Of a stretch of 64,000 nt of DNA, positions 20,542 through 26,424 are shown piece after piece. The number at the start of each line of letters is the position of its first letter. Position 1 is the stretch's first letter. Location of the stretch: assembly GCA_024637035.1 (NCBI GenBank), contig JAGXFW010000016.1, positions 372,001 through 436,000 of the forward strand. Direction: 5' to 3'. Below the pieces are notes generated by a model. That model saw nothing but the letters and a program-made list of their open reading frames with translations. It was not told where the DNA came from and did not search any database. The position numbers and the translations under genes are program-made. The stretch comes from Actinomycetes bacterium (GTDB taxonomy: Bacteria > Actinomycetota > Thermoleophilia > RBG-16-64-13).

Positions 20542-20865
20542 TCAACTACTTCGTTCTAGAGTCGGGACAAGATGGATTTCGACATCACACCCGACTGCTT
20601 GAGCATACTTCTTGAGCGTCGTGACCGAAGGCGAATGTTTGCCGGCAGCCTCCAGACGTGAGACCGCGCTCTTGGTGGTCCCCATCGACTCGGCGACCTC
20701 CTCCTGGGTGAGTCCCGCGCGCATCCGTGCGCCGAGAAGCTCACGCACGAGCAGGTATTCGTCTTCGAGGTCGTCGTAGGCCTCGCCGAAGCCTTTGCGC
20801 TTGAGGGCCTTCTCGAGGAACGCTTCGTGATCGTGGGTGACAGGCCTATGGCCGCGGTCAGTCAT
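20542..20865 (-). CDS. higA: HigA-like antitoxin, XRE-type helix-turn-helix
   Basis: DNA-binding antitoxin of a type II toxin-antitoxin pair. 107 aa. Helix-turn-helix at ~50-95: MRAGLTQEEVAESMGTTK, then AVSRLEAAGKHSPSVTTL, a classic XRE domain. It overlaps the toxin gene by eight bases and is second in the operon, the order typical of higBA. It should bind the toxin and repress the shared promoter. Confidence 0.88.
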   Translation of the reverse strand: MTDRGHRPVTHDHEAFLEKALKRKGFGEAYDDLEDEYLLVRELLGARMRAGLTQEEVAESMGTTKSAVSRLEAAGKHSPSVTTLKKYAQAVGCDVEIHLVPTLERSS

Positions 20866-21184
20866 CCTGTACCTCCTTCATCCTCCGGCGGGCGATCCCC
20901 AAATCGCGCTTGGAGGTCGTCTGCGTCTTCTTCACGAACGCGTGGAGTACGACCACTTGCTGTCCGCGCACGAAACAGTACATCGCACGCCCGATGCCTT
21001 CGCGTCCACGGGGACGGAGTTCAAGGAGTCCGCCGCCGAGCGCGCGCGAATGCGGCATCCGCAGATCGGGACCGAACTCCATCAGGAGTTCGATCAACCG
21101 CGCGTAGTCCGCCAGGATACCCACCGGCCAAGACTCGATCTCGTCGAGCACGCGGCGGTTGAAGTACTCGACGGTGTACGGCAT
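20858..21184 (-). CDS. higB: HigB/RelE-like toxin
   Basis: Predicted ribosome-dependent mRNA interferase of the phage-derived Gp49/HigB family. 108 aa, usual size. Seen: YFNRRVLDEIESW, LRMPHSRALGGGLLELRPRG, GRAMYCFVRGQQVVVLHAF and KKTQTTSKRDLGIARRRM, which match the family core and its C-terminal basic helix. First gene of the pair, 8-9 bases after a palindromic operator. Chromosomal TA modules of this kind are often acquired horizontally. Confidence 0.88.
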   Translation of the reverse strand: MPYTVEYFNRRVLDEIESWPVGILADYARLIELLMEFGPDLRMPHSRALGGGLLELRPRGREGIGRAMYCFVRGQQVVVLHAFVKKTQTTSKRDLGIARRRMKEVQDD

Positions 21185-23110: not shown

Positions 23111-25069
23111 GTGGCGAACGAAGTGTCCCTTGAGGGAAAAGTCTTCGATGTGATCGAGAGCTTCCAGAAGAACGCCTGGATCTCGAGCATGGAGCAGTAC
23201 TACGAGATGTACAAGCGCTCGCTCGAGGACTCCGACGCGTTCTGGGCGGAGACAGCCGAGCGTATCCACTGGTTCAAGAAATGGGACAAAGTACAAGACC
23301 ACGACTTCGCCAATGCCAAGATCGGGTGGTACGTCGGCGGCAAGCTGAACATGAGCTACAACTGCCTCGACCGCCACATGGAGACCGACGTGGCCGACAA
23401 GGTGGCCTTCTACTGGGAGGGCGACAACCCCGAGGTCAGCCGCACCATCACATACCGCGACTTGTGGACCGACGTCACCAAGTTCGCCAACGTCCTGCGC
23501 AAGAAGGGCGTCAAGAAGGGCGACCGGGTCACCATCTACCTTCCGATGATCCCCGAACTGCCCATCGCCATGCTGGCCTGCGCACGCATCGGCGCCATCC
23601 ACAGCGTGGTGTTCGGCGGCTTCTCGGCCGATTCCCTTCGCGATCGTATCCTCGACTGCGAATCCAACATGATGATCACCGCCGACGGCGGCCTCCGAGG
23701 CTCGAAGAGCGTGCCCCTGAAGGCCGCAGCCGACGAGGCCATGGCGGCCTGCCCCAGCATGACCACGTGCATCGTGGTGCGGCACACCGGCCTCGACGTC
23801 GATTGGGTCGACGGTCGTGACAGCTGGTACCAAGACGAGATGGCGGCCGACGATATCACCACCGACTCGCCCTGCGAGGAGATGGACGCCGAGGATCCGC
23901 TCTTCATCCTGTACACATCGGGATCCACCGGCAAGCCGAAGGGTGTCATGCACACCACGGGCGGCTACTCCGTCTACACCAGCTTCACCCACCAGATGGT
24001 CTTCGACTACCATCCCGAGGACATCTTCTGGTGCACCGCCGATATCGGTTGGGTCACCGGCCACAGCTACATCGTGTACGGGCCCCTGCAGAACGGCGCC
24101 ACCTCGGTGATGTTCGAGGGCGTGCCGAACTACCCGGCGCCCGACCGCTTCTGGCAGATCGTCGAGAAGTACAAGGTCAACCAGTTCTACACGGCCCCCA
24201 CCGCCCTTCGGGCCATCGCGCGCGAAGGAGACGATTGGGTCAAGAAGCACGACCTATCCTCCCTGCGCCTGCTCGGCACCGTGGGCGAGCCGATCAACCC
24301 CGAGGTCTGGCTGTGGTACCACGGCCTCGTGGGCGGCGGTAACTGCCCGATCGTCGACACTTGGTGGCAGACCGAGACGGGCGGCATCCTCATCACCCCG
24401 TTGCCCGGCGCCATGAAGATCAAGCCGGGTTCGGCCACGTTGCCCTTCTTCGGAATCGAGCCGCTGCTGGTAGACGCCGATGGCCTCGAAGTCGAAGGCC
24501 CCGGAGTGGGCAACCTCTGCATCAAGAGGCCGTGGCCCGGTCAGATGCGCGGCGTATACGGCGACCCGAACCGCTTCTTCGACACCTACTTCAAGCAGTA
24601 TCCGGGCAACTACTTCACCGGTGACGGCTGCCGGCGCGATGAAGACGGGTACTACTGGATCACCGGCCGCGTGGATGACGTGATCAACGTCTCCGGGCAT
24701 CGCATGGGCACCGCCGAGGTGGAATCCGCACTTGTGAGCCACGACTCTGTGGCTGAGGCGGCCGTCGTCGGCATGCCACACGACATCAAGGGACAAGGCA
24801 TCTACGCGTACGTCACCTTGAACGTGGGCATCGAACCGTCCGATGAGCTCAAGAAGGCGCTGGTCGCTCACGTGCGCAAGGAGATCGGGCCCATCGCCAC
24901 TCCGGACGTCATTCAGTGGGCCCCCGGTCTGCCGAAGACCCGCAGCGGCAAGATCATGCGGCGGATCCTCAAGAAGATCGCGGCTAACGACGTGACCGAC
25001 CTGGGCGACACCTCGACTCTGGCCGACCCGACCGTGGTGGACAACCTGGTGGAGCACCGCAGCGTCTAG
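23111..25069 (+). CDS. acs: Acetyl-CoA synthetase
   Basis: Activates acetate to acetyl-CoA through acetyl-AMP in the cytoplasm. 652 aa, the usual length. Seen: the AMP-binding motif [46 protein letters not shown], the hinge [15 protein letters not shown], and the C-terminal [15 protein letters not shown] with the Lys that is acetylated in the family. GTG start seven bases after GGAGG. A strong hairpin follows. The stop is TAG. Confidence 0.97.
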
Positions 25070-25107: not shown

Positions 25108-25139
25108 GCTTCGGGGCGGCCTTCGGGCCGCCCCGAAGC
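25108..25139 (+). terminator. Hairpin with TTCG loop after acs
   Basis: Perfect 14-base-pair stem GCTTCGGGGCGGCC / GGCCGCCCCGAAGC closed by a TTCG tetraloop. No T-run. Very stable and symmetric, so it may stop transcription from both sides. Confidence 0.75.
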
Positions 25140-25155
25140 CATTCTGGCACTCTGC

Positions 25156-25184
25156 TTGCAGCGGCCCACCAGAAAGGCTAGACT
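25156..25184 (+). promoter_or_regulatory. Promoter of the ferredoxin-like gene
   Basis: TTGCAG (25156-25161), 17 bases, TAGACT (25179-25184). Transcription would begin near 25191, just before the palindrome at 25197. Confidence 0.6.
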
Positions 25185-25196
25185 AGGCTTCGACTA

Positions 25197-25212
25197 ATAC
25201 CCCCCTGGGTAT
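25197..25212 (+). promoter_or_regulatory. CsoR/CstR-like operator
   Basis: Perfect palindrome ATACCC-ccct-GGGTAT placed at the expected transcription start. It closely follows the published operator pattern of CsoR-family repressors (copper or persulfide sensing): ATACC with a G/C centre and GGTAT. No csoR gene lies in the window. Confidence 0.55.
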
Positions 25213-25291
25213 GAATCTCGCGGAAGAGTTGTTTGCGCTATCCGTGCGAGACCCAGCTGGGGCCCCCGGATGGCAGAGGCGAAGGAGAGAC

Positions 25292-25699
25292 ATGAGCAAA
25301 GAGGCCGGATCACGCGGACGACCCGGAGGCCCGGATACTCCACAAGCTGCTCCGACCGCCCACCGCGTCGGCGCGGGCTCACCCTCCCCGCGAACCCGCG
25401 AGCGCGCCGGTGGTCACAGGGTGCCCGGGCCCGACCGGCCCGTGGCCTTCATCGATCCGTCTCTGTGTGACCGTTTAGCCACCTGCCCCGTGCGGGCCAT
25501 CTGCCCCAAGGACGCAGTCGTCGCGGCGCCGGGAAGCCCGAAAGCCAAGACACAGCGCAGGTGGTTCGGTCAGCGTGCGGAACCGGAAGCGCCCGCTTCC
25601 TGGCAGATCGACGAGGATCGCTGCACAGGTTGCCTCTTGTGCGCTCAGTACTGTCACAACGGTGCGGTAGTGCCCGGCACACGGAGCAAGACAGGCTGA
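25292..25699 (+). CDS. Ferredoxin-like iron-sulfur protein
   Basis: 135 aa from the ATG at 25292, which follows GAAGGAGA; an ORF starting at 25211 would begin at the operator and is rejected. A basic, Pro/Arg-rich N-terminus (~1-45) precedes two Cys clusters. The first is CDRLATCPVRAICPKDAV, with odd spacing C-x5-C-x5-C-P; the second is a regular CTGCLLCAQYCHNGAV. Together they can hold one or two [4Fe-4S] clusters. It probably acts as an electron carrier or as a small subunit. The operator upstream suggests a response to copper or sulfide. Confidence 0.75.
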   Translation: MSKEAGSRGRPGGPDTPQAAPTAHRVGAGSPSPRTRERAGGHRVPGPDRPVAFIDPSLCDRLATCPVRAICPKDAVVAAPGSPKAKTQRRWFGQRAEPEAPASWQIDEDRCTGCLLCAQYCHNGAVVPGTRSKTG

Positions 25700-25851: not shown

Positions 25852-25880
25852 TTGACAGATTCGGCATGTCTTGAGATAGT
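25852..25880 (+). promoter_or_regulatory. Consensus promoter of the Lrp-family regulator
   Basis: TTGACA (25852-25857), 17 bases, GATAGT (25875-25880). One of the best sigma-70-type promoters in the window. Transcription from near 25887 rules out the in-frame TTG at 25852 as a start codon, because that codon is the -35 box itself. Confidence 0.75.
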
Positions 25881-25911: not shown

Positions 25912-26424
25912 CTGACCATCACGCTCGACACCACCGACAGACGCATCATCGCCTGCCTGCAGGAGGACGGTCGCATGTCGGCCAGCGACATCTCGCGGCG
26001 CCTCGCAGGGGTGCCGGAGCGCACCATCCGGTACCGCATAGAACGCCTCAGCGAACACGATGTGATGCATGTGGGAGCCATCGTCGACCCCAAAGCCCTC
26101 GGCTACAGCGTGACCGCGGACCTCTGGATCGAAGTAGCCCCCGATCGTCTGCGCGAGGTCGCAGGCCGTCTCGCCGAACTCGAAGAAGTGAGCTACGTCG
26201 CCTATTCTACGGGAGAGCGCGACCTCAGCATCCAGGTGTACGCTCGAGACAACCAGAGCCTGCACGCCTTCGTGAGCGACGTGGTCGGCCACATCCCTGG
26301 AGTCACCCGCACGAGCACGATGCTCGTTCCGTGGAAGGTCAAAGATGTACATCAGTGGCGCGTTCCCGAGGAGGCGCCGTCGAACCGGTCGATCACCGGA
26401 CAAGAGACCAGGAGGACAGCATGA
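25912..26424 (+). CDS. Lrp/AsnC-family transcription regulator
   Basis: DNA-binding regulator with a helix-turn-helix (LDTTDRRIIACLQEDGR, then SASDISRRLAGVPERTIRYR) and a C-terminal RAM ligand-binding domain. About 170 aa. The only start consistent with the promoter and with GGAGGAGG (25900-25907) is the CTG at 25912, a rare start codon; upstream candidates lie in the promoter or before the ribosome site. The last codons overlap the aminotransferase start as ATGA, so the regulator probably controls that gene, perhaps sensing its amino-acid substrate. Confidence 0.88.
   Translation: MTITLDTTDRRIIACLQEDGRMSASDISRRLAGVPERTIRYRIERLSEHDVMHVGAIVDPKALGYSVTADLWIEVAPDRLREVAGRLAELEEVSYVAYSTGERDLSIQVYARDNQSLHAFVSDVVGHIPGVTRTSTMLVPWKVKDVHQWRVPEEAPSNRSITGQETRRTA

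Follow-up and report, generated by a model that had tools for sequence, protein, structure and literature searches.

CsoR-family systems closest to the locus

The described systems closest to the locus reported here are CsoR-family repressors that answer either reactive sulfur or copper; they are cited below from excerpts of the respective papers. ScCsoR (SCO0620) of Streptomyces coelicolor is a sulfane-sulfur-sensing repressor that binds the 16-bp sequence ATACCn6GGTAT and represses its own gene together with those for a persulfide dioxygenase and a rhodanese (PMC7533328). The CstR proteins of Staphylococcus aureus and Enterococcus faecalis have the DUF156 fold, two conserved cysteines, and rhodanese and sulfide:quinone oxidoreductase (SQR) genes as targets. 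Direct control by the S. aureus protein likely extends to a single operon (PMC5480029), and the genes under a known CstR are usually close to the regulator gene (PMC10318464). In Thermus, two CsoR-family paralogues use separate sites in one cell, with the sulfur regulon far from the gene of its regulator (PMC10318464). The copper-responsive CsoR of Streptomyces lividans uses 17-bp TAC-X9-GTA operators, found before copZA operons and csoR (PMC3902906).

We have analyzed a 64,000-nt stretch of DNA (the window) from an uncultured actinobacterium, in which a predicted operator of this type precedes the gene for a small ferredoxin. The locus and its genome share with ScCsoR the 16-bp site, an actinobacterial host, a cysteine sensor and sites before the regulator's own gene and before rhodanese genes. 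The ScCsoR targets, however, are a local set of persulfide dioxygenase, rhodanese and sulfite transporter genes (PMC7533328), whereas the sites described here are scattered and lie at ferredoxin, thioredoxin and SQR–DsrC–DsrE genes. Eight separate perfect sites likewise contrast with the single operon of S. aureus CstR. A sulfur regulon distant from the repressor gene is found for the CsoR-family protein TTHA1953 of Thermus thermophilus, but its site, TACNNTACNNNNGTANNGTA, has another spacing and its targets include Sox genes (PMC10318464). With the S. lividans copper operators the sites share half-sites and G tracts, but not spacing (PMC3902906).

The regulator type and the form of the site are therefore already known. 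A ferredoxin as a CstR or CsoR target was not found in a search of an open-licence literature collection that does not include two main CstR papers; given that restriction, we make no claim that such a target is unpublished. The recurrence of a conserved operator at this ferredoxin and at sulfur genes suggests that an uncharacterized ferredoxin helps to handle reactive sulfur, and conserved operator and gene neighbors together would link a ferredoxin family that has no name yet with the response to reactive-sulfur stress.

Operator, promoter and gene start

A perfect palindrome, ATACCC-CCCT-GGGTAT, occupies positions 25197–25212 of the window (no strand assigned), as an initial sequence-only reading had reported, and the ferredoxin-like gene begins 95 nt on. 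The predicted CstR-type operator, ATACCCCCCTGGGTAT, has the same form as the ATACCn6GGTAT site bound by the sulfane-sulfur sensor ScCsoR (PMC7533328). It is the single match in the window at up to two mismatches, where shuffled sequences yield 0.65; one match is thus unsurprising, and recurrence elsewhere is the test.

The same reading had placed the site at the predicted transcription start, and the alignment of six orthologous upstream regions bears this out. Three elements are invariant: (i) the palindrome, with constant arms around four variable spacer bases; (ii) CTTG, which overlaps a −35 element TTGCAG (25156..25161, plus strand) and (iii) TAnACT, represented here by a −10 element TAGACT (25179..25184, plus strand). 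The conservation of these elements supports TTGCAG and TAGACT, separated by a 17-bp spacer, as a sigma-70-like promoter, which is not among the reports of a consensus promoter scan of the window. The operator begins 8–12 nt past the −10 element in the six regions and would extend from approximately +6 to +21 at our locus, so a repressor bound there would block initiation.

The gene itself (25292..25699, plus strand) encodes 135 residues. Translation likely starts at the ATG at 25292, which has a ribosome binding site AAGGAG (25282..25287, plus strand) 4 nt ahead and is shared with the closest orthologue; the ATG at 25211, which overlaps the palindrome, is disfavored. The upstream neighbor encodes an acetyl-CoA synthetase (23111–25069). 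Between it and the ferredoxin promoter lies a perfect 14-bp inverted repeat, GCTTCGGGGCGGCC / GGCCGCCCCGAAGC (25108..25139, plus strand), a possible end of the upstream transcript; it has no T tract and is absent from the output of a terminator scan. Downstream, an AsnC/Lrp gene (25915–26424) starts 216 nt beyond the ferredoxin gene and has a promoter-like site of its own (25852–25880). Elsewhere in the window, two small overlapping genes on the minus strand (20542–21184) have, by eye, the look of a HigB/RelE-type toxin and its antitoxin.

The site accompanies ferredoxin homologues

Eighteen genomes of the order, all from one family, were searched for orthologues, and seven gave matches: six orthologues, our own included, and a partial match within a 505-aa frame. 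The palindrome lies directly upstream of all six orthologues; five copies are perfect and the sixth, in G007, reads ATACCCCTGCCGGTAT. No orthologue was found in the other 12 family genomes. Its presence in only 6 of 18 implies that the ferredoxin is dispensable for some holders of the CstR-like gene described below.

A sample of 396 genomes drawn from the phylum, together with a named collection, supplied 13 additional homologues that share the cysteine pattern. In the 300 nt that precede the first cysteine codon, TACC-N6-GGTA is present for 17 of the 19 homologues, against 0.058 expected from dinucleotide shuffles, and the fuller TACCC-N4-GGGTA for 14 (0.006 expected); with six homologues from f24, three from f46 and two pairs of close relatives within the window's family, these are not 19 independent events. 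Membership of the 19, which include L044 and L058, is defined by patterns that demand C-x5-C-x5-C, so that proteins with other spacings fall outside the count. In the draw of 396, 24 genomes matched, and ten of the matches (L051–L057, L059–L061) were placed outside the 19. L051 proved on reading to be of a different type, L052 lacks the motif, and the other eight resemble mostly the second Fe–S motif.

Two homologues have no TACC-N6-GGTA. One, from G347, is the sole actinobacterial exception, and a search of that genome for CsoR-family genes found none, although at 92% completeness the absence is not certain. The other is from a Bacillota metagenome-assembled genome (MAG), which has a CsoR-family gene 4 kb away.

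Downstream of the ferredoxin gene, the Bacillota MAG has a thioredoxin gene and a zinc-ribbon gene, matching a thioredoxin and a zinc-ribbon gene that form one cluster behind the same operator in our genome. Neighbors were read at three of the six f24 loci and at two of the three f46 loci. In all three f24 loci read, the ferredoxin precedes a gene for a coiled-coil protein and one of DUF1462 type (below the family cut-off for the one searched); in both f46 loci read, it precedes a DUF1462-like gene (above it for the one searched). These neighbors point to thiol and sulfane-sulfur redox chemistry rather than copper.

The small coiled-coil protein, which carries a GxxGVHI motif, stands beside window-type ferredoxins at the three f24 loci and in G347 (L082, L083, L084, L088). 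In G009, a perfect palindrome lies 49 nt ahead of the gene for a similar protein (G009:C1:2209450, L135). A Pfam search with the coiled-coil protein returned no family above cut-off; it is possibly a further member of the regulon.

A dispersed set of sulfur and redox genes

Our genome (G000) contains eight perfect palindromes, and 11 sites with at most one mismatch against two for a reversed-pattern control. The short core TACC-N6-GGTA behaves differently: 29 copies against 98 of the reversed pattern in our genome, and no excess in any of five genomes. Consequently, the core carries weight only in its fuller form or in a position ahead of a gene. All eight perfect sites are in such a position, 36–214 nt ahead of a start codon. 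Their targets comprise three clear sulfur or thiol operons, three Fe–S redox genes, one of which encodes the window ferredoxin, and two others. The sites precede an SQR gene accompanied by DUF1641, DsrC and DsrE-like genes; a gene for a 64-aa ferredoxin followed by two rhodanese genes; a thioredoxin gene with the zinc-ribbon gene in its cluster (site C31:70357); a gene for a 1025-aa FAD/Fe–S oxidoreductase; a gene for an HmcB-like Fe–S protein (128.7 bits, below its cut-off); the window ferredoxin gene; a DUF6951 gene (G000:C8:44647, L014) and a gene for a YchF-like ATPase (G000:C29:36444, L015; TIGR00092, 174.8 bits, cut-off 279.2). The SQR belongs to the type III selenoprotein subtype of NCBIfam (640.7 bits, cut-off 525). 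Sites with one mismatch precede the CstR-like gene (GTACCCTAGGGGGTAT, 128 nt ahead of its start), an OsmC gene and, by eye, a TlpA-like gene with a CcdA-like gene behind it. No persulfide dioxygenase was recognized by eye in the gene lists beside sites of this type. These lists come from a purpose-written gene caller trained on the window and are approximate, since the caller missed the window ferredoxin itself; in the relatives, genes are named by likeness to those of our genome or by eye, except where a family match is cited.

Five relatives together hold 26 perfect sites against none for the reversed-pattern control, and 14 more family genomes hold 25 against two. In the six genomes whose sites were read, a window-type ferredoxin stands behind a site in all six (thus in all five relatives) and a thioredoxin in five (among the relatives G006, G009, G016 and G147). 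Sites also precede the 64-aa ferredoxin (G006, G016), the FAD/Fe–S gene and DUF6951 (G006, G009), HmcB-like genes (G016, G076), TlpA- or CcdA-like genes (G016, G147), DsrE-family genes (G076), a rhodanese and a thioredoxin-like gene (G147), the YchF-like gene (G006), cytochrome-like and coiled-coil genes (G009) and two genes whose role is unclear (L142 in G016, L126 in G147). The YchF-like gene and an MFS-like gene that stands behind a site in G147 have no evident link to sulfur. Of the 13 genomes in the window's family that encode a CsoR-family protein, 12 contain a perfect site; of the five that do not, one does. The exceptions are G003, where a CstR-like gene occurs without any perfect site, and G014, with a single site but no gene of the CsoR family. 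The whole amounts to a predicted, testable genome-wide persulfide regulon for uncultured actinobacteria. The initial reading had regarded a ferredoxin as an odd target for a CsoR-family repressor; here the ferredoxin recurs behind the site, and a second small ferredoxin, the one encoded with two rhodaneses, has the same site.

Two target types merit separate mention. The YchF-like ATPase stands behind a perfect site in both our genome and G006 (L132), and a role for it in sulfur metabolism is not obvious. A DUF6951 protein or look-alike is found behind a site in three genomes (L014, L129, L136) and is possibly an unrecognized sulfane-sulfur protein.

Two CsoR-family paralogues as candidate readers

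A CsoR/CstR-type operator had been proposed from the palindrome, with a search for csoR-like genes and for the site upstream of orthologues among the checks. These two checks agree with the proposal: the site recurs as described above, and the genome has two CsoR-family genes, one copper-type (C31:71717) and one CstR-like (C7:183648-183950). The CstR-like protein has 100 residues and matches DUF156/PF02583 (92.1 bits, cut-off 22.8). Its Cys42 and Cys71 are 29 residues apart, as in the reference proteins, a pair that the search pattern demanded. At the copper-ligand position, four residues before the second cysteine, it has Arg in place of His, and a His one place earlier. The ligand position is Arg or Gln in the rest of its clade within the family except for His in L068, L070 and L072, and elsewhere is Ser (f46 and G269) or Val (f24); with His in three of 13 clade members, the ligand residue is no clean mark.

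TACC-N6-GGTA lies within 400 nt upstream of 12 of the 13 family genes in the clade of the CstR-like protein, L068 (one of the three with His) being the exception, and upstream of none of the seven in the copper clade. L080 (G010; His type, no site) is outside both counts, and L081, the same open frame as L078, was counted once. The tree is without L080, which escaped the search pattern, and without L081, L092, L093 and L095–L097, partly through choice of representatives. In it the copper clade falls together with 4m1p and 4adz, copper CsoRs of solved structure, at a support of 92/91 that does not reach the starred level. Its member in our genome has a His four residues ahead of the second cysteine, completing a Cys–His–Cys ligand set, and a neighbor that looks CopZ-like by eye.

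Similarity to solved structures does not name the effector of the CstR-like protein, because it scores highest against a copper CsoR (63.8 bits), next against InrS, a nickel sensor (61.5 bits), and lower against 7mq1 (52.7 bits). The companion entry of 7mq1, 7MQ2, is called CstR in PMC9774590. That 7mq1 is not the closest match sets the protein apart from known CstRs, and in our trees 7mq1 is on a long branch and unplaced. The CstR-like gene also sits apart from the sulfur genes of the predicted regulon, which we weighed as a departure from a usual, not a defining, feature of CstR.

Each of the three f46 genomes has one CsoR-family match, with Ser replacing the copper-ligand His; G147, the one of these genomes whose sites were listed, contains five perfect sites. 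The f24 and f46 regulators have no TACC-N6-GGTA before their own genes. A single 215-aa open frame in G007 (G007:C54:20293-20787; L078, L081) has two CsoR-family domain matches and is possibly a tandem or fused regulator.

Signal and proposed mechanism

The window site, TAC-X8-GTA over 16 bp, has the ScCsoR form and not the S. lividans copper form, and from this spacing together with the set of target genes, the signal is likely to be persulfide or a different form of sulfane sulfur. The initial reading had left copper and persulfide side by side. On present comparisons the persulfide branch is favored, given (i) the spacing; (ii) the targets; (iii) a CstR-like paralogue with the site before its own gene and (iv) a genome in which the sites persist although its one CsoR-family protein is CstR-like. 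Spacing, paralogues and targets alike make copper the less likely main signal.

We consider it highly probable that a CstR-like repressor binds the palindrome and is released by persulfide or polysulfide, and that the ferredoxin belongs to a dispersed sulfur regulon. The repressor we infer is the product of the CstR-like gene at C7:183648-183950, unlinked to the window. At low sulfane sulfur, the reduced protein would sit just downstream of the −10 element and prevent transcription. As persulfide or polysulfide builds up, its cysteine pair would be modified or cross-linked and the repressor would leave the DNA. The ferredoxin would then be made together with SQR, the DsrC/DsrE sulfur carriers, rhodaneses, thioredoxin and OsmC, and would most likely serve as an electron carrier in sulfane-sulfur handling, with partners of the thioredoxin type.

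Alternatives to this assignment differ in which protein reads the site. The copper-type CsoR could do so, the ferredoxin then answering copper, for example by replacing Fe–S clusters damaged by Cu(I). The genome does encode a Cys–His–Cys CsoR with a CopZ-like neighbor, and of the eight perfect sites the one at thioredoxin (C31:70357) lies as close as 1.36 kb to its gene, with the CopZ-like gene between (the site is near csoR in G006 too); published copper operators, moreover, have the same TAC...GTA ends and G tracts (PMC3902906). However, all seven copper-clade genes are without an upstream site, the S. lividans copper sites are one base longer, and no copper exporter was seen by eye in the gene lists adjacent to our eight perfect sites. 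In the f46 genomes a copper-type CsoR was not found, and yet G147 keeps its sites. We therefore give copper control a low probability. Equally improbable in our judgment is that both paralogues bind the site and the ferredoxin answers copper and persulfide alike. The half-sites of the two published operator types are alike and the spacing differs by one base (PMC7533328, PMC3902906), but the Thermus paralogues show little to no cross-binding of each other's sites in the cited excerpt (PMC10318464), and G147 retains sites with one CsoR-family match.

Least credible, to the point of rejection, is a reader outside the CsoR family or a chance palindrome. The AsnC/Lrp protein encoded downstream is the obvious candidate for the former, and its gene lies close to that of the ferredoxin in three relatives as well (G006, G009 and G007). 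At the loci read in G016, G017, f24 and f46, though, the site accompanies the ferredoxin with no AsnC gene seen adjacent. The site thus goes with the ferredoxin whether or not AsnC is present beside it, and on this ground we reject AsnC/Lrp as the regulator. The site also recurs ahead of sulfur genes and tracks CsoR-family genes. Chance is rejected on the genome-wide excess over the reversed control and on the 17 homologues with a site where 0.058 were expected.

With the CstR-like repressor as the preferred reader of 16-bp sites, the 17-bp form can be considered separately. TACCC-N5-GGGTA shows no excess over control in G000 (2 versus 3), which speaks against copper control in our genome, or in G006 (2 versus 3). 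It numbers 5 versus 4 in G009 and is in excess in G016 (3 versus 0) and G017 (4 versus 0). Such sites occur at G000:C3:26929 and 28571 (L161, L166), G006:C97:70786 (L160) and G017:C3:22797 (L164); their neighbors, by eye, are SHOCT/cytochrome-like genes, ABC-transporter genes and the gene for a small protein that carries the motif AAP(R/Q)GF. That these are copper CsoR sites is suggestive only. The comparison suggests a candidate actinobacterial rule, in which a 16-bp site would mark a response to sulfane sulfur and a 17-bp site a response to copper, that could aid annotation of CsoR-family operators.

The ferredoxin

The protein had been called a small iron–sulfur protein from its sequence, and Pfam Fer4 agrees (25.3 bits, cut-off 21.1). 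A structure model has the EHE-EHE ferredoxin fold, with core blocks at pLDDT 85–91, a mean of 68.8, a pTM of 0.50 and a low-confidence N-terminus; a Foldseek search with the model returned ferredoxin-domain Fe–S proteins, none below an E-value of 0.001.

Seven cysteines are invariant among eight aligned homologues, in the arrangement C59-x5-C65-x5-C71 and C111-x2-C114-x2-C117-x3-C121. The second motif is the canonical CxxCxxCxxxC. The first is C-x5-C-x5-C, so the protein departs from the two-motif pattern of 2x[4Fe–4S] ferredoxins: the usual second cysteine is missing, and five residues, not three, stand ahead of the last. Ligation by three cysteines would suggest a putative [3Fe–4S] cluster or a [4Fe–4S] cluster with an open iron. 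Seven-iron [3Fe–4S][4Fe–4S] bacterial ferredoxins have the ferredoxin fold and seven cysteines, with one ligand position replaced. The window protein shares the fold and the cysteine number but differs in the spacing of its first motif.

A bolder reading makes the ferredoxin a dedicated sulfane-sulfur protein, in which the open iron site of the three-cysteine cluster would take up or reduce persulfide and pass electrons or sulfur to thioredoxin, as a main output of the persulfide regulon over several actinobacterial lineages; we regard this as unlikely, if conceivable. The first motif reads CDRSPxCP in 15 of the 19 homologues. In the 64-aa ferredoxin encoded beside the rhodaneses, the second cysteine is present and the five-residue gap is the same.
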